A stretch of DNA of 64,000 nucleotides from Alphaproteobacteria bacterium (GTDB lineage: Bacteria > Pseudomonadota > Alphaproteobacteria > UBA9655): positions 1 through 64,000 of the forward strand of contig JAIEPE010000002.1 of the NCBI GenBank assembly GCA_019749915.1. The letters run 5' to 3'. This document shows, piece after piece, positions 140-53,359 of this stretch. The position numbers and the translations under genes were made by a program. The notes beneath the pieces are model-generated. The model saw only the letters and a program-made list of their open reading frames with translations, was not told the DNA's origin and did no database searches. Position 1 is the first letter of the stretch; every line of letters begins with the position of its first letter.

Positions 140-562
140 ATGAAAAACGATCTTAAGGTCTCTCATTGGGCCCATGAGCTCAGTAATGCCATCCCAGACA
201 AAGCCGTCGGGATTAGTCTTGCACCTTTAGCAGGAGATGATTTGTTTACATCCTATGTCGCTGAGATTCCTGTCGGCGCTTGCGTTGCAGCCCATTATCA
301 TCCAAAAGGGATCGAAATCTATCAGATATTAGCAGGCAAAGGTTTGATGAAGATTGGCTCTGTCACCGCAGATCAGCCCGTAAGGTGGGATCAATGCAGA
401 GAAGTTACAAGTGGAGACTTTTTTACAATCCATCCTGGCATCGTACATCAACTTGAAAATAATTCTTTAGAGCGATTAATTTTAATCGTCACTTGTTCTC
501 CCACAAACTTGAGCTACAATCGCATTGTAACAGAACAAAAGGTAGAAAATGCAGCACGTTGA
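140..562 (+). CDS. Cupin-domain protein
   Basis: A 140-residue single-domain cupin. Cupin motif 1 is complete: G46, five residues, H52-Y-H54, four residues, E59, six residues, G66. Motif 2 is recognisable around PGIVHQLEN. The two His and the Glu would bind a divalent metal in the barrel. There is no signal peptide, so it should be cytoplasmic. An AGGAG ribosome site lies 7 bases before the ATG. It overlaps the following methyltransferase gene by 14 bases, so the two are probably co-translated. The substrate is unknown; small cupins act as isomerases, dioxygenases or sugar-binding sensors. Confidence 0.75.
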   Translation: MKNDLKVSHWAHELSNAIPDKAVGISLAPLAGDDLFTSYVAEIPVGACVAAHYHPKGIEIYQILAGKGLMKIGSVTADQPVRWDQCREVTSGDFFTIHPGIVHQLENNSLERLILIVTCSPTNLSYNRIVTEQKVENAAR

Positions 563-1280
563 ATGTGAAAAATGGGTAAGCACTTTAAATGATAGAGGCT
601 ATATGACATTGAGTATAGACCCATTTACACAAAAGTTCTTAGACTATTGTGAAAGTCATTCAGGTGTGCATGTTTTTGAAGGAGGAGCTGCCTATGGAAT
701 TGCAACACACCTTGCCCTAAAAAGAGGCGCTATCGTCACTGCAAATGATGGTGATCCAAGGCACCTTGACTTATTGTATGAACATACCCCTCAAGAATTT
801 CGCTCTGCCCTTAAACTATCTCCTGGTATGCTCCCCCACGACCTTGATTTTCCGAAGGATTCATTTGATGTCATTTATTCATCAAGAATGATGCATTTTT
901 TGACGGGTGAAGAAGTTGAAATTTGTATGAGCAAATTTTTTAATTGGCTTAAAGAGGGAGGAAAAATATTCTTAGTGGTTGAAAGTCCTTATCTTGGTGC
1001 TTGCTATTCTGCATTCATCCTCACCTATGAAGAAAGAAAAAAACAAGGTCACCCTTGGCCCGGCTTGATTGAAGACACAACATCTTATAAATCTATGCGG
1101 TATAATAATATTCCTCGCCTTCTGAACTTTTTTGACACGGATATTATGAGGCGAATTTCTAAAAACTGTGGGCTTATAGTTGAAGAATGTGCTTACATTA
1201 ACCGCACCGATTTTCCTCTGGAAGTCAGACACGACGGCAGAGAAAGTGTCGGACTTGTAGCAACCAAGCCTTATGCGTAA
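549..1280 (+). CDS. Class I SAM-dependent methyltransferase
   Basis: A 243-residue protein with a Rossmann-type methyltransferase core. Motif I is VFEGGAAYG near residues 42-50. An acidic ND pair follows at the end of beta 2, a DVIYSSRMMHF motif-IV-like segment comes around residue 110, and a KEGGKIFLV post-motif strand after it. The C-terminal third (about 150-243) is a lid or substrate domain I cannot assign. It starts inside the cupin gene, which suggests coupled translation and a shared small-molecule pathway. The methyl acceptor is unknown. The gene is followed at once by a 101-bp structured repeat. Confidence 0.75.
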   Translation: MQHVECEKWVSTLNDRGYMTLSIDPFTQKFLDYCESHSGVHVFEGGAAYGIATHLALKRGAIVTANDGDPRHLDLLYEHTPQEFRSALKLSPGMLPHDLDFPKDSFDVIYSSRMMHFLTGEEVEICMSKFFNWLKEGGKIFLVVESPYLGACYSAFILTYEERKKQGHPWPGLIEDTTSYKSMRYNNIPRLLNFFDTDIMRRISKNCGLIVEECAYINRTDFPLEVRHDGRESVGLVATKPYA

Positions 1281-1410: not shown

Positions 1411-2685
1411 TTATGCATAGGCTTGCGCATTCTGAGAAGAGAGATCTTCCTCATTAAATTGAGCATCAAAATTTACAGGACGGGAAAGTTTCAGTGCAAT
1501 CAACCCAAAAATGCCACTAACTATGTAGTAAAGTGCGGGGGCTTCGTTCATTTCACTCATTTTCAATAAAAGGGTGGAGATAAAGGGGGCCGTGCCTCCA
1601 AAAACCCCAACACCAATTGCAAAAGCTGTTGATATTCCTCGACACCTAAAGGAGGAAGGAAATAATTTTAACATATAAGCATGCATAGGACCTAAAAAGA
1701 GAGCAGCCAATAGAGCTAAACCAATTTGGCCAGAGTAGAAAAATCCAGAAGATAATAAGTAAAAAAATGGGTAGGATAGAAAAATCGTTGAGAGGGCACC
1801 CCACTGCATCACCTCCCGATGACCGCATCGATCGGAAAGAAGTCCAAACACAGGAAGGAAGACAATATAAACCCCCAACCCGACATTATTAATCAAGGAG
1901 GCTTGGGAAAGGGAAAGATGCAGCGCAGAGGTTAGATAAGATGTCATATAGCCTACAAGAGAAAGAGACAGTGTTCCTGCCAACCAACCAATGCATACTG
2001 TAACGCCGATGTTTTTCCAGTTCGCATAAAATCCTTTGTATGTGTCACTCTGCTTTTGTATGGCAGAAAAATTTGCCTCTTTTATTTGACTCTTACGCAA
2101 GTAAAAGCCAATCACTCCTATCAAAGCCCCTAAAAGAAAAGCAAGTCGCCAAGACCAATGAGAATATTGAGGAAAAGCAATCACAAGCGCTGCAACCATG
2201 GAGGCCAGGAAAAATCCTACAATTGAAGACGCAATCATGACGCCGCTAATCAGTCCTTTTTTAGGAGTATTTACATTTTCTAAAAGATAAATAGCTGCAT
2301 TATTATATTCTCCGCCTGTACAAAATCCCTGGAGCAGGCGACAGAGAACCAGCATGATGGGAGCCACAAGCCCGATTTGATCATAGGTTGGTAAGAAGCT
2401 AATGCATGTTGTGGGAACAGCCATCAACAAAATGGTCCGACTTAAACATACTTTTCGCCCGACCGTGTCTCCTATGTAGCCAAAGGCTAATGCCCCTATA
2501 GGCCTCATAATAAATCCAATTGCAAAGACACTCGCACTTGCAAGCAAGGAAGAAATACCATCATCACAACAAAAATAGAGAGGAGTAATGATAACGGATA
2601 AAAAACCAAAGAGTCCTAAATCATAAAATTCTAGGAGATTTCCAATAAGCACAAGAAGTGGATTTTTGTTTAAAATTTTAAGCAT
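1411..2685 (-). CDS. MFS transporter, MHS (proline/betaine-like) type
   Basis: A 424-residue membrane protein with about 12 hydrophobic segments. The MFS loop 2-3 signature reads FGYIGDTVGRK, and LLQGFCTGGEY after TM4 is typical of the metabolite:H+ symporter family (ProP, ShiA, KgtP relatives). It would import a small organic solute with protons. It is transcribed away from the ligand-domain gene at 2832 and shares a 146-base control region with it. A second MHS transporter at 50714 sits in the same company (ligand-domain protein and XRE/S24 regulator), so the association is not chance. The substrate cannot be read from sequence. Confidence 0.85.
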   Translation of the reverse strand: MLKILNKNPLLVLIGNLLEFYDLGLFGFLSVIITPLYFCCDDGISSLLASASVFAIGFIMRPIGALAFGYIGDTVGRKVCLSRTILLMAVPTTCISFLPTYDQIGLVAPIMLVLCRLLQGFCTGGEYNNAAIYLLENVNTPKKGLISGVMIASSIVGFFLASMVAALVIAFPQYSHWSWRLAFLLGALIGVIGFYLRKSQIKEANFSAIQKQSDTYKGFYANWKNIGVTVCIGWLAGTLSLSLVGYMTSYLTSALHLSLSQASLINNVGLGVYIVFLPVFGLLSDRCGHREVMQWGALSTIFLSYPFFYLLSSGFFYSGQIGLALLAALFLGPMHAYMLKLFPSSFRCRGISTAFAIGVGVFGGTAPFISTLLLKMSEMNEAPALYYIVSGIFGLIALKLSRPVNFDAQFNEEDLSSQNAQAYA

Positions 2686-2730
2686 ATCTTTTTTTACTAT
2701 AATGTGAGCTAAAAGAAAAGATTTATTTTT

Positions 2731-2800
2731 TTGTTAAACATTTTTGCTAAATCTTCTGTTAAATACTCTTGACGAAGACTCATTGAAATATGAGAATATC
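2731..2800 (+). promoter_or_regulatory. Divergent control region with three direct repeats
   Basis: Between the MFS and ligand-domain genes lie three similar 9-mers, TTGTTAAAC (2731), TTGCTAAAT (2744) and CTGTTAAAT (2756), spaced 12-13 bases apart. They are followed by a TTGACG -35-like hexamer at 2770 and weak -10 options around 2790-2800. Direct repeats at near-helical spacing are a common arrangement for regulator binding. The likely regulator is the XRE/S24 protein at 3426, but this is inference. Confidence 0.35.
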
Positions 2801-2831
2801 TTAAACTTACAATAATGATGGGAGAAAAAAA

Positions 2832-3344
2832 ATGGCAGGAAAAATTCTAACCTCTCTTCCTTCAGATATAGAAAAAAATCTTTTAGCTCTCACAAATAAC
2901 TTACGAGAACTAGGCGTCACTCATATAGGGCACGGCCTCATCGTAGGCTCTTTAAAACCAACCGCATTTTTTTCCTGCAAAGAATGGGCGGAGAGATATG
3001 ATGATGAAGATCTTGTAAGCAGAGACCCCATCAGGGCCTGCGCCCTAAAAACAAATTTCAAGATTATCCCTTGGGAATATATCCCCTCTAATAAGGAGCA
3101 AAGACCCGTAATAGAGGAGAGAAAGCGTGAGTTTTGTTCTAAAACCGGGCTCTTGATCTCTATAAAAAACAAAGAGTTTCATGAAACGTTTGTTTTTGGA
3201 ACAGATTCAAAAAAGCATGATATTACTCATTTTTTCAGTAAAAATTCGCGTGTCCTTATTGAAAATTTATTAATGTTTAGGAAAGAACATATGCGTTATT
3301 ATACCCAAAGCATTTCAAGTTATCGGGCAGGCGCCCAAGAGTGA
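2832..3344 (+). CDS. LuxR-type autoinducer-binding domain protein without HTH
   Basis: A 170-residue protein matching the autoinducer-binding half of LuxR/TraR regulators (PF03472 type) and nothing else. The pocket residues have the right order and spacing: W52, Y56, D65-P66, W81 and G106 correspond to TraR W57, Y61, D70-P71, W85 and G113. The family's C-terminal LuxR HTH is absent, because the protein stops where it should begin. HTH-less relatives such as TrlR of Agrobacterium block a full-length partner; no full-length LuxR or LuxI is visible here. The last ten codons, including the stop, lie inside the 101-bp repeat at 3313, so the original C terminus may have been replaced. A paralogue lies at 52030. 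Confidence 0.75.
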   Translation: MAGKILTSLPSDIEKNLLALTNNLRELGVTHIGHGLIVGSLKPTAFFSCKEWAERYDDEDLVSRDPIRACALKTNFKIIPWEYIPSNKEQRPVIEERKREFCSKTGLLISIKNKEFHETFVFGTDSKKHDITHFFSKNSRVLIENLLMFRKEHMRYYTQSISSYRAGAQE

Positions 3345-3413
3345 GCCTGATGAGCGTATTCTGATGTGTGACAGAGGGCGAATCCCGCAGGGGAACGCAC
3401 CCAGAACTTGAAA
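3313..3413. repeat. 101-bp structured repeat, copy 2
   Basis: Same length as the copy at 1290-1390 and with the same terminal TTTCAAGTT/AACTTGAAA. It differs at about a dozen positions, several of which keep pairing (for example the central CGTAT/ATGTG stem). The left end overlaps the 3' end of the ligand-domain gene and supplies its stop codon. The right end stops 12 bases from the stop codon of the converging regulator gene. Confidence 0.85.
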
Positions 3414-3425
3414 CGTGAAGAGTAT

Positions 3426-4073
3426 CTAGTAATGACGGCGTCGATGCCATACGATAGGTGCCACTGTTTTTATAGTATAATCAAATAAAATAGGAGGAGA
3501 TACTTTTGTCAGTGGATTCATACATACCAATGTATAGCATCCCATCTTGGTTCCCTTTAAAAGTCTACGAACAAGCTGTTCTCCCTTTTGAGTAATGATG
3601 ATGCAATCTTTACCAATTGCCTCTTTTAAATTTTCAGAGAACAATCCCCCAACGTAATCTCCAATAGCATAAAAAGGCTCCATCCCATTATCTAACACAC
3701 AACTCACAATACTATTGCTATATAATTGCTGAAAAAAAGAAGCTTCTTTCATTATTTTTAATTCTGGTGATAACGCAGATAATAGGGCTTCACTATCTTC
3801 TAATTCATTCGTTTCAGTTTCTCCTTTTAAAGGAGGAGTACCTTCGCCTTTAAGAAGCCATTTAAGGGTACAAGAGTACCCTTCTTGCCGGACACCATTT
3901 GCGATTCTTTCTGCTGTTTTCTGATTTAAAGGCCTTTCTCCTTTTTCAATGGCATATAAATGAGAGAAGGAAATTCTATATTTTTTTCCAAATGCAGGTA
4001 ACTTCATACCACATAACGTAATCGCTATTCTTACTCGCTTACCGCAATCTTTTCTGATTTCATCGTTAATCAT
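3426..4073 (-). CDS. XRE-family regulator with degenerate S24 domain
   Basis: A 215-residue protein. Residues about 8-65 form a lambda-repressor-type HTH, with ISFSHLYAIEKGERP as recognition-helix region. WLLKGEG follows, and residues about 120-215 form a LexA/CI-like S24 domain (MEPFYAIGDYVGG, LVRRLL). The catalytic Ser that normally precedes the Met of this motif is G130, and the general-base Lys is replaced by Arg (R169/R170). Self-cleavage is therefore unlikely, and the domain probably serves dimerisation or ligand sensing. It converges on the ligand-domain gene. A clear paralogue at 52552 has the same neighbours and the same loss of the dyad. Confidence 0.8.
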   Translation of the reverse strand: MINDEIRKDCGKRVRIAITLCGMKLPAFGKKYRISFSHLYAIEKGERPLNQKTAERIANGVRQEGYSCTLKWLLKGEGTPPLKGETETNELEDSEALLSALSPELKIMKEASFFQQLYSNSIVSCVLDNGMEPFYAIGDYVGGLFSENLKEAIGKDCIIITQKGEQLVRRLLKGTKMGCYTLVCMNPLTKVSPPILFDYTIKTVAPIVWHRRRHY

Positions 4074-50569: not shown

Positions 50570-50713
50570 ATATCTTATCTTCTTGTTTTATATTGATTCT
50601 CTGATGTTGACATTTTTCACCACTGCTTTTAACTAAATAAGATAATAAATATATAATGGAAGAATAAGTTATTTTATTGCATCTTATTTTTTACCTTTTT
50701 GGGAGCGTAATCA

Positions 50714-52033
50714 ATGACAACCATTGCCATTAATCAAAAACTACAAGGTACAATCTCGAAAGATCCAACGTCTAAAGTTTTTTTATCTGCCTACATTTGC
50801 AACATGCTAGAGATGTATGATTTCCTTATCACAGGAATGATGTTTCCTTATATTTCCCAGTTATTCTTCCCCTTGGAGGATAAAATTTCTGTCCTCTTAG
50901 CTGGCTCTCTGACCTTTCTAGTTGGCTTCCTTATGATGCCACTTGGTGGCATCCTTTTTGGCTATATCGGCGATAGATACGGCCGCAAACGCGCGCTTCT
51001 TATAAGCATTTCGGGAATGACCCTTGCAACCGTTGGTATTGGGCTTCTCCCCACCTATAACGCCATTTTATTTTTGTCCCCCATCCTCTTCGTATTTTTA
51101 AGACTTATCCAAGGGTTATGTCTTGGAGGAGAAAAGCAAGGCGCAAGCATTTTTACCCTCGAGCATTATAAAGGTATCCGCCCTGGAACCCGCGGCGCAT
51201 TACTGGCAACATCAAACGGCATGGCAGCCCTTGTTGCCTTTTTTATAAGCTTAATCGCAACATCCTATCTTTCCTCACAAGAAGGCTGGAGATTTTGCTA
51301 TCTCTTCGGCGGAAGCTTGGGAATTGTGGGTCTCTATCTTCGATTTTTTATTAATGAATCACCTGCTTTTCTTCAATATTTTTCTGAGAAAACCCTTAGG
51401 AAAAACGTTCCGCTTATCAACGTTTTGAAAAACAGAAAACTCAACGTTATGAACGCTTTTTTGGGCACAGGGGTTCTTGTTTGTTTAACCTATACGGGCT
51501 TTACATTTGTCAATCTTTTCCTTACCCAATTTTTAAATTTCTCCTCCACCTTCTCTCTTTCCTGTGCAGCTTCAGGAACAATCATAGGAATGATTGCCGT
51601 TTGTTTTGCTGGGAGGCTTTGTGATCGTTTTGGCCTATATACTATACTCCAACTTTCTCTGCTTATTCTCTTAGTCACCATTTTTCCGATTCATTGGCTT
51701 TTAGCTTCAGGAAATACTGCAGGAATATTTCTTTCTCTGCTTCTTCTGGCCTTTCCTACAGGTGGTTTTGCCGGATGCATCCCCCACTTAATTGCAAGTT
51801 CCTTTCCTCCCCAGGAACGCTATAGTGGATCTGCTTTTAGCAATAATTTAGCACAGGCCTTTTTAGGAGGTGTCCAACCTTTCCTTGCAATCTATTTGAT
51901 TAAAATAACTGATGTTTTATGGTCTCCAGCGATCTATACATTTTTATTAGCAGCTACCTATTTTTTGTTTTTACAGGTGTTTGGAAAAAAACTAACTTGT
52001 TTTGATTATATAGGTAAGGAGTCACAAAAATGA
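50714..52033 (+). CDS. MFS transporter, MHS type (cassette 2)
   Basis: A 439-residue protein with about 12 membrane segments. The signature FGYIGDRYGRKRAL and the RLIQGLCLGGEKQGA segment after TM4 mark the metabolite:H+ symporter family, as in the transporter at 1411. A TTGACA at 50607 with TAACTA 17 bases on is a possible promoter. GGGAG lies upstream of the ATG. The stop overlaps the ligand-domain gene (ATGA), so the two are co-translated, which is direct support for a functional link. Substrate unknown. Confidence 0.87.
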   Translation: MTTIAINQKLQGTISKDPTSKVFLSAYICNMLEMYDFLITGMMFPYISQLFFPLEDKISVLLAGSLTFLVGFLMMPLGGILFGYIGDRYGRKRALLISISGMTLATVGIGLLPTYNAILFLSPILFVFLRLIQGLCLGGEKQGASIFTLEHYKGIRPGTRGALLATSNGMAALVAFFISLIATSYLSSQEGWRFCYLFGGSLGIVGLYLRFFINESPAFLQYFSEKTLRKNVPLINVLKNRKLNVMNAFLGTGVLVCLTYTGFTFVNLFLTQFLNFSSTFSLSCAASGTIIGMIAVCFAGRLCDRFGLYTILQLSLLILLVTIFPIHWLLASGNTAGIFLSLLLLAFPTGGFAGCIPHLIASSFPPQERYSGSAFSNNLAQAFLGGVQPFLAIYLIKITDVLWSPAIYTFLLAATYFLFLQVFGKKLTCFDYIGKESQK

Positions 52034-52545
52034 GCAATCCCAAAACCTTTAAAAATTCAGGCATGGAAATAACCTTGAGGAAGGATTTTTATGATACCTT
52101 TGATGAGCAGCTGAAAAAAATTACATCAGAGACAGAAGTCAGCTATATCGGCCATAACATCATCAAAAATTATCGCGAGCCAGGGCACAAAATAAGCACA
52201 TTCTGTAACCATGAGACCTGGCATGATTTATACTGGAACAAATATCTACACCATGATCCCATGGAAAAGGTCGTTCATGAAACTTTAAGAAAGAGTAATT
52301 TTGCCGTCGTTTCCTGGGAAATTGGTCAAAATCAAAGTGAGTGCGGGCAAGAGAGGGCAAAACTATTAAGGGTCAAAGATGGCGTTTTCTTTTCCTTTAA
52401 AAGACCTGAGAATTTTTTTGAAACTTTTATTATCGGCTGGGACACCTTAAATACAGATAAACTGGATGTAGATTATATTCTCCAGCTAACCTCTCTCCTC
52501 AAACCTATCAGGGATCACCACTGGGAAGTTCTTAATAACAGTTAA
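52030..52545 (+). CDS. LuxR-type autoinducer-binding domain protein without HTH (cassette 2)
   Basis: A 171-residue paralogue of the protein at 2832. Pocket residues again line up: W64, Y68, D76-P77, W96 and G118, then FFETFIIGW (compare FHETFVFGT in the other copy). The DNA-binding half of LuxR proteins is missing, and here no repeat has cut the end, so the short form appears to be the native one. AAGGAG lies 9 bases upstream. It overlaps the transporter gene by 4 bases and converges on the XRE/S24 gene with a 6-base gap. Confidence 0.75.
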   Translation: MSNPKTFKNSGMEITLRKDFYDTFDEQLKKITSETEVSYIGHNIIKNYREPGHKISTFCNHETWHDLYWNKYLHHDPMEKVVHETLRKSNFAVVSWEIGQNQSECGQERAKLLRVKDGVFFSFKRPENFFETFIIGWDTLNTDKLDVDYILQLTSLLKPIRDHHWEVLNNS

Positions 52546-52551
52546 GGTTTT

Positions 52552-53172
52552 TTACTCTCTAAACCGCCTCATAAAAGTAACCGGAGCAACGCTTAAAGGC
52601 TCATGCTCCAGAAGAAGCAAGTGGTTTTCTGTGCTTTGATTCATCGAAAGTAAAAGGATATAACTCTTTTGCAAGAAAAATTGGCGCACCAAAAAATGAT
52701 TTTTCTCCATTTCCACGATACAAATATTCCCTTGTTCTTTGGGATAGGCTTCCGGAGAGATTATAGGTCCCCCTACGTAATCCCCAATGCGTAAAAAAGG
52801 AGACATAGTCTCATCACGCATCAAAGTTAAAAGCATCTCCGGATGAGCTTTTTTAAAGGATTCAATTTCCTTATAAATAAGAAATTGATTGGTTATATCA
52901 AAAGGCTCATCTTTTCTTTCGTCAAATGATAGGGAAGGTGTCAAAAGGTAGGGAGCATCTCCTCTTCCTTCCAACAGCCATTCTTTTGTACAAATAAGCC
53001 CTTCTGTCGCTAAAAGGCTGATAATCTTATGGACATTTTTTTCTGAGATAGGAGAAGTGCCCGACTCCCAATTTGAAAGAGATCCAATACTTATTTTATG
53101 AGTATCTCCTAATTCCTTCAACGTCTTTTTAAGCATATTTCTACATTGCTTCAAACGATTTGCTCTGTTCAT
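52552..53172 (-). CDS. XRE-family regulator with degenerate S24 domain (cassette 2)
   Basis: 206 residues. N-terminal HTH (ISIGSLSNWESGTSPIS), then WLLEGRG, then an S24 domain with MSPFLRIGDYVGG and FLVRQFF. It matches the protein at 3426 along its length (IGDYVGG, WLL-G-G, C-terminal AP-N3-RR). The catalytic Ser position is T122 and the Lys position is R163, so neither paralogue keeps the dyad. AGGA lies 6 bases before the ATG. A TTTTGT-AG-ACAAAA palindrome at 53223-53236, 50 bases upstream, could be its own operator. Confidence 0.8.
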   Translation of the reverse strand: MNRANRLKQCRNMLKKTLKELGDTHKISIGSLSNWESGTSPISEKNVHKIISLLATEGLICTKEWLLEGRGDAPYLLTPSLSFDERKDEPFDITNQFLIYKEIESFKKAHPEMLLTLMRDETMSPFLRIGDYVGGPIISPEAYPKEQGNICIVEMEKNHFLVRQFFLQKSYILLLSMNQSTENHLLLLEHEPLSVAPVTFMRRFRE

Positions 53173-53222
53173 AAAATTCCTAATAATTCAAAAAATGAAA
53201 TCTGTTTTCAAAAACTAAATTT

Positions 53223-53236
53223 TTTTGTAGACAAAA
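53223..53236. promoter_or_regulatory. Palindrome upstream of XRE/S24 gene
   Basis: TTTTGT and ACAAAA are perfect complements with a 2-base centre. It lies 50 bases upstream of the regulator start codon on the minus strand, where an autoregulatory operator would be expected. Confidence 0.35.
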
Positions 53237-53307
53237 TATTTCCTTAACGCTATCCTACAAACGGCCCAAAATATGAGTTTTAAGAGTTTAGTGGTTCTCA
53301 AAAATCT

Positions 53308-53350
53308 AAGGCCTCCATTGGAGAGGGGTTAGTCACCCTCTCCACCTTTT
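53308..53350 (+). terminator. Hairpin with T run and shared decamer
   Basis: AAGGCCTCCA at 53308-53317 precedes an 8-bp GGAGAGGG/CCCTCTCC stem (53320-53343), which is followed by ACCTTTTTAT. Read on the plus strand it is a good intrinsic terminator, yet no annotated plus-strand gene ends nearby, so a short RNA may be transcribed here. The same decamer and a hairpin occur at 4350-4390 upstream of the other XRE/S24 gene. Confidence 0.5.
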
Positions 53351-53359
53351 TATAGGAAC

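Follow-up and report, generated by a model that had tools for sequence, protein, structure and literature searches.

Gene layout of the two cassettes

The stretch of DNA analysed (64,000 nt, hereafter the window) belongs to a genome (G000) of 2.08 Mb in 73 contigs, which encodes 16 transporters of the metabolite:H+ symporter (MHS) family and three copies of an HTH-less "ligand-domain" protein (LIG), the third of them on contig C68. In the window LIG forms part of two trios, each composed of an MHS transporter, LIG and a regulator with XRE and S24 domains (XRE/S24): cassette A, at 1411-4073, contains LIG1 and XRE1, and cassette B, at 50714-53172, contains LIG2 and XRE2 (Table 1). The initial annotation had located both trios at these positions, and a check of the open reading frames found them intact; the details that it gave of their layout can also be read in the sequence, namely the ATGA overlap of the MHS and LIG2 genes of cassette B (52030-52033), the gap of 6 nt that separates the stop of LIG2 from that of XRE2 (52546-52551) and the divergent transporter gene of cassette A. 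The three protein pairs are indeed related across the copies, as had been claimed, with identities of 29% for LIG1 and LIG2 (E 1e-9), 28% for XRE1 and XRE2 (E 7e-21) and 31% for the transporters (E 5e-42). Cassette A extends further upstream, into a conserved methyltransferase gene and a cupin gene that the initial annotation had missed.

Table 1. Features of the two cassettes (window positions) and examples of the f4 family (positions within the named loci or contig)
Feature	Position	Strand	Basis or remark
Cupin protein, small, 5' of methyltransferase, clade A	140..562	+	PF07883 E 5e-8; in 3/3 clade A loci
Class I SAM methyltransferase, partner in cassette A and clade D	549..1280	+	PF08241 E 7e-9; clade D methyltransferases of the same family; in 3/3 clade A loci
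MHS-family transporter, cassette A	1411..2685	-	TIGR00883 E 1e-85
Divergent promoter region common to MHS and LIG, cassette A	2686..2831	.	conserved in G003, partly in G013
LIG1, standalone LuxR-type autoinducer-binding domain, cassette A	2832..3344	+	PF03472 E 1e-4; AlphaFold and Foldseek
XRE1, XRE HTH + S24/LexA-fold regulator, cassette A	3426..4073	-	homology to XRE2; G/R in place of the catalytic Ser/Lys
Candidate control region 5' of MHS-LIG operon, cassette B	50570..50713	.	intergenic
MHS-family (TIGR00883-like) MFS transporter, cassette B	50714..52033	+	TIGR00883 E 1e-71; PF07690 E 1e-27
LIG2, standalone LuxR-type autoinducer-binding domain without HTH, cassette B	52030..52545	+	homologous to LIG1; pocket residues W, Y, D, P, W, G present
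XRE2, XRE HTH + S24/LexA-fold regulator, cassette B	52552..53172	-	PF12844 4e-6; PF00717 3e-4; T/R in place of the catalytic Ser/Lys
Candidate control region 5' of XRE/S24, cassette B	53173..53359	.	intergenic
f4 family, examples	L035 9521-10114; L032 5288-5929; L049 5694-6269; L190 36-617; G000:C73:107272-107802		last example on the window's contig, outside the window

A LuxR-type pocket without a DNA-binding domain

The AlphaFold model of LIG, built from 25 relatives (mean pLDDT 85), has its best Foldseek matches in YenR, LasR and TraR (probability 1.0, E about 2e-6 to 1e-5, TM about 0.6). The match of LIG1 to PF03472 scores 22.3 bits, slightly below the cut-off of 23 bits, and LIG2 gave no match in the same search. 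The sequence profile of the family matches TraR at 7e-5 and aligns with W57, Y61, D70, P71, W85 and G113 of that protein, which have been named as the six conserved residues of the pocket in a study of CerN (PMC11655674). Both window copies carry all six. Among the 25 LIG proteins of the genus the W, Y, P, W and G are invariant, and the position of D70 is occupied by D in 16 and by E in 9 (all of clade D, see below), that is, by an acidic residue of one kind or the other in 25/25. The LIG proteins, of 153-178 aa, stop after the ligand domain and show no match to GerE, so the C-terminal HTH that characterises LuxR regulators is missing; the description of LIG as an HTH-less protein of the LuxR type therefore stands.

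When the HTH-less LIG proteins are placed in one tree with the ligand domains taken from full-length LuxR solos, a common origin of all HTH-less members agrees with the data (AU p 0.51). LIG may thus represent an old family, distinct from the full-length solos, and its members would not be fresh truncations. A canonical LuxI partner was sought: PF00765 has matches in 0/15 genomes of the genus, the control genomes being equally silent, so that the absence is unproven. A viral origin was rejected, as a viral scan returned no relative of LIG2 and the best phage matches to XRE1 were partial 'peptidase' genes. The plasmid matches to LIG are weak and correspond to autoinducer-binding proteins of Bradyrhizobium.

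A regulator that has lost its catalytic dyad

The XRE/S24 proteins match the XRE HTH (PF12844/PF01381) and, more weakly, S24 (PF00717), the latter below the Pfam cut-off, and the closest HTH sequence of solved structure is that of P22 C2. In both window copies the Ser-Lys dyad is lost (Table 1), and among 20 aligned XRE/S24 proteins only the one at locus L128 retains both residues. A self-cleaving switch of the LexA/CI kind was consequently discarded, since the dyad is not conserved.

The subtype is closely associated with LIG in the genus: 14 of its 17 strong matches sit at LIG loci, and the remaining three comprise two that accompany a LysR gene and an MHS gene (L191, L192) and one displaced copy in G004. 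Outside the genus there are at least nine relatives with no LIG nearby, which counts against a functional tie between LIG and XRE/S24. At two loci (L169 196-2476 and L174 5990-9366) a relative of XRE/S24 is immediately followed by an apparent sodium:solute symporter gene, LIG being absent. Proteins with S24 and no HTH have also been observed adjoining or near MHS genes (L182 4446-6477; L112 7864-8391 in G249).

Linkage within the genus

The genus was sampled with 15 genomes, in which LIG was sought by profile search and the 8-kb flanks of each gene were read. A total of 25 short LIG genes was found at 24 loci in 12 of the genomes; the profile search returned none in G001, G005 and G011, two of which are 63-83% complete. 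MHS is adjacent at 23/24 loci, the exception (L052) stopping at a contig edge, and XRE/S24 is present at 14/24.

Four clades with different arrangements can be distinguished. Clade A (three loci) presents the cupin, the methyltransferase, an MHS gene divergent from LIG and a convergent XRE gene. Clade B (three loci, one with LIG in tandem) consists of an MHS-LIG operon with convergent XRE; at the tandem locus (L042 7800-8875, G009:C30) the genes immediately upstream encode a LysR regulator and another MHS transporter. Clade C (nine loci) shows MHS-LIG followed by convergent peptide deformylase and XRE genes; farther on come f4, which is GNAT-like, and a gene that may encode a 2OG oxygenase. 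Clade D (nine loci) is made up of MHS, methyltransferase and LIG. There is no XRE gene near the clade D loci, so XRE is not the constant member of the trio that had been supposed, and LIG of clade D must act otherwise or on an unlinked regulator. In one genome of clade C (G004) the MHS-LIG pair (L045) and the XRE-deformylase-f4 group (L190) are found on different contigs, which also argues against joint action of LIG and XRE. A scan of named genomes by alignment with clade C recovered eight uncultured proteobacterial MAGs, all of them members of this clade. When the promoters were aligned clade by clade, conserved stretches appeared, and no palindrome common to the XRE and MHS promoters was seen.

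The chance that a random gene of G000 has an MHS gene within 2 kb is about 4%, yet the three LIG genes of this genome all do; this figure, together with the count for the genus, indicates that the adjacency is not due to chance. The surroundings of the cassettes are informative as well. The clade B loci of the window and of G009 have MHS, LIG and XRE alone in common, all other flanking genes being different, and the clade A loci of the window and of G013 share only the cupin, methyltransferase, MHS, LIG and XRE genes. The clade C loci have additional synteny in common (def, f4 and f5).

Recurrence in other families

Comparison with a class sample of 385 genomes showed that LIG genes without an HTH also occur in several further families of Alphaproteobacteria. 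MHS or XRE adjoins about 8 of the 17 genes of this kind, and 2 of them have neighbours of both types; with the counts for the genus, these figures are the outcome of the scoring of the neighbours of LIG homologues that the initial annotation had proposed. Two trios are present in G249: in one (L112), MHS and LIG are accompanied by a convergent protein with S24 only, and the other (L117) combines LIG, XRE and an MHS gene split into two frames. That the three genes travel together, as had been suggested, is borne out by this recurrence and by the trio that the window and G009 share.

Partial combinations are found elsewhere. G148 carries two XRE-LIG pairs, each on a single strand, with the start of LIG overlapping XRE or 1 nt behind it; further XRE-LIG pairs occur in G149 and G342, and MHS-LIG pairs with a divergent methyltransferase in G126 and G229. 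The contigs of the G148 pairs (L128 and L168) are plasmid-like, with ParA-like genes (and, in L168, conjugation-like genes), and the pairs are followed by genes for YbgC-like (acyl-CoA) thioesterases, with an SDR gene in L128. Co-occurrence of LIG and XRE outside the genus amounts to 5 genomes vs 0.33 expected, a figure uncorrected for phylogeny. Solitary LIG genes exist in G147, G249 (many), G318 and G235, and for this reason the linkage of LIG is not obligatory outside the genus.

Origin of the two copies

The transporters of both cassettes match TIGR00883 but fall under its curated cut-off of 443 bits. In a tree that includes non-cassette MHS proteins, a single clade for the cassette transporters of clades A-D is rejected (AU p = 0.0098), and those of clade B group with L204 (support 98/95); in the LIG and XRE trees, A and B are distant and not sisters. 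A recent duplication of the three-gene unit is thereby ruled out, and with it the description of the cassette as duplicated. Since the cassette transporters are not one clade, the two trios of the window either are old paralogues of each other or were put together independently, and the phylogenies are better explained by a sensor-regulator pair that acquired transporters repeatedly than by a duplicated cassette. Repeated recruitment in turn strengthens the functional argument. The proposal that the three proteins work together thus keeps the support of their linkage and loses two of its elements, duplication as a unit and an obligatory XRE.

Associated genes

The methyltransferase family adjoins MHS at every place where it was seen, although the loci were picked by their MHS or LIG content and this count is therefore biased. 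At L051 802-2769 (G008:C12) an MHS transporter and a methyltransferase of the family that accompanies cassettes A and D are naturally fused in one protein of 655 aa. Because the methyltransferase lies beside MHS or is fused to it, the compound transported in clades A and D may be methylated.

The clade C neighbour f4 has no match in Pfam or NCBIfam. Its AlphaFold model (pLDDT 79) shows a GNAT topology, and the best matches in the PDB are FeeM, an N-acyl amino acid synthase, and BjaI and MesI, both AHL synthases, with EsaI lower (TM 0.39-0.52); the signature residues of LuxI are not evident. The gene is divergent from XRE in 8 clade C loci. The family has 2-9 copies in 15/15 genomes of the genus, including those devoid of LIG, and does not occur in cassettes A, B and D. 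To judge by the predicted fold, f4 may be a cryptic family of signal synthases, though one that is not tied to LIG. Many of its copies are divergent from LysR genes or from regulators of GerE-NB-ARC-TPR composition, and some are divergent from proteins of about 1100-1250 aa (L245 3517-7743, L246 832-5427, L249 3992-8223 and L250 4256-8814); a scan of the large protein of L245 found an N-terminal LuxR-type GerE HTH followed by NB-ARC and TPR domains. The gene f5, which adjoins f4 in clade C (L032 4606-5229 and L035 10174-10797), gives a weak match to 2OG-Fe(II) oxygenases (PF13640 E 0.07; NF003974 E 0.005).

Proposed mechanism and alternatives

LysR and LuxR regulators combine ligand sensing and DNA binding in one chain. 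The cassettes pair a pocket devoid of an HTH with an HTH protein in which S24 is incapable of self-cleavage, and a split regulator is for that reason the economical reading. We favour, with a probability of roughly one half, the interpretation that the three genes form a module which responds to a ligand and controls the MHS transporter locally. LIG would be a cytoplasmic sensor domain of the LuxR type, unable to bind DNA itself, and XRE/S24 would be the regulator that binds DNA and dimerises through a domain of the LexA/CI type, one no longer capable of self-cleavage. The putative ligand would be a small molecule moved by the transporter, whether inwards or outwards, or derived from the compound moved. 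LIG, in its bound or unbound state, would contact XRE/S24 and alter its binding to a presumptive operator, and the expression of the transporter would be adjusted as a result, along with that of LIG, since both genes lie in one operon or have a divergent promoter in common. LIG and XRE would together be a two-protein version of the single LysR or full-length LuxR found beside other MHS genes. Overall, the cassette is real and recurrent, and the analysis suggests that it constitutes a two-protein ligand-sensing switch for transporter genes, apparently undescribed. More tentatively, and with less confidence than the module itself, it may be proposed that this split architecture, in which an HTH-less LuxR domain and a non-cleaving CI/LexA-like repressor control transporter genes, is new, that its combination with MHS transporters arose more than once, with different carriers, across several alphaproteobacterial families, and that in one clade a cryptic enzyme of LuxI/FeeM fold completes a set of sender, transporter, receptor and repressor.

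The constancy of the MHS-LIG pair, the most regular of all, can be accounted for in another manner, if LIG acts on the transporter or on the methyltransferase, be it as an allosteric subunit, as a sensor or as a chaperone for the substrate, while XRE/S24 merely represses the operon locally and on its own account. The pair forms operons in clades B and C, G126 and G229, and it persists where no XRE gene accompanies it (clade D, G004, G126 and G229); an action on the methyltransferase would agree with the position of that gene next to MHS and with the fusion at L051. Against such a role stand the XRE-LIG pairs of G148 (twice), G149 and G342, often tightly adjacent, which have no MHS gene, and we know of no soluble LuxR-type domain that acts on an MFS carrier, so we hold this alternative to be unlikely. 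That the neighbourhoods reflect chance or passive co-inheritance and have no functional meaning is very improbable: the abundance of MHS genes in G000 and the extended synteny of clade C would be expected under it, but clade B and the clade A locus of G013 keep the cassette amid different surroundings, transporters have been recruited more than once, and the arrangement recurs in other families.

As a dominant-negative protein comparable to TrlR and CerN, HTH-less LuxR proteins for which this role is known (PMC11655674, PMC13043044), LIG would sequester full-length LuxR solos of the same genome, and its neighbours would belong to the regulon of those targets. At least three such solos are encoded in G000 (L033, L184), but the cassettes contain XRE/S24 and no full-length LuxR, and LIG, which is not a recent truncation, may be an old family apart from the solos; this makes the dominant-negative role somewhat more doubtful than an action on the transporter. 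A slightly slimmer chance is assigned to a complete signalling circuit, in which a signal of acyl type, produced by f4 in clade C and perhaps by the methyltransferase in other cassettes, is moved by MHS and received by LIG, with XRE responding to it. The predicted fold of f4 with its synthase-like matches, its divergent position relative to XRE and the acyl-CoA thioesterase-like genes that follow XRE-LIG in G148 speak in favour of the circuit, but the low TM-scores, the lack of an evident LuxI signature and the distribution of f4, which is found in genomes without LIG and is missing from cassettes A, B and D, speak against it.

Relation to known systems

LuxR-type receptors are taught as single proteins in which the sensor and the HTH go together, and the HTH-less forms of which we are aware only poison their full-length partners. 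A search of the literature found no published description of a cassette of LIG, XRE/S24 and MHS, in agreement with the initial annotation, which knew of no such system.

In PipR of Pseudomonas GM79 the response to the ligand needs a neighbouring ABC transporter (PMC4981722). The cassettes resemble LuxR solos of the PipR/NesR/OryR type, which possess a dedicated importer, in that a LuxR-type ligand domain is encoded beside a transporter, the solos being also beside enzymes for the ligand (PMC4981722, PMC10134790). Unlike PipR, which has its own GerE HTH, an ABC transporter and peptidases, the cassette has neither HTH in LIG nor peptidase; its transporter is of the MHS family, and XRE/S24 is present as a distinct protein. 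The PipR-transporter modules are the nearest worked-out precedent; the cassette would be alike in function and new in its architecture. A review describes a 'subgroup 2' of LuxR solos with an adjacent mfs1 gene, where a LuxR-type sensor likewise adjoins an MFS transporter; its members are classed there among the LuxR solos, in which an HTH follows the ligand domain, and neither HTH-less members nor an XRE/S24 partner is mentioned (PMC10134790).

As in TrlR (Agrobacterium) and CerN (Cereibacter, an alphaproteobacterium), LIG is a LuxR ligand domain without HTH; however, those proteins inhibit full-length LuxR partners of the same quorum-sensing system, whereas LIG is linked to XRE/S24 with no full-length LuxR near. 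The regulator shares the XRE HTH and S24 domain of LexA/CI-type repressors and differs from them in its unconserved dyad and in its linkage to a transporter and LIG instead of prophage or SOS genes. With the LysR-MHS pairs of the same genomes, the cassette has in common a local regulator beside an MHS gene, but LysR joins DNA and ligand binding in one chain and the cassette would divide them over two proteins. If this is true, a conserved family of standalone LuxR pockets joined to CI/LexA-like regulators and MHS carriers would represent a new wiring of the LuxR sensor to gene control, and would help to learn which compounds are sensed and taken up by these uncultured bacteria, which apparently depend on a host or a community.

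Other MHS loci

Further MHS genes of these genomes adjoin a local LysR gene (L195, L196, L197 and L199). Full-length LuxR solos are also found next to MHS, as a one-protein counterpart of the cassette, at L186 8690-11543 (G013:C1, with a methyltransferase as well) and L183 3143-5820 (G014:C15). Finally, four near-identical MHS genes lie on separate contigs of G000 (L200-L203, on C53, C12, C47 and C42, respectively), two of them (L200 and L203) with the same upstream genes, and represent a recent amplification of MHS in a genome of 2 Mb.
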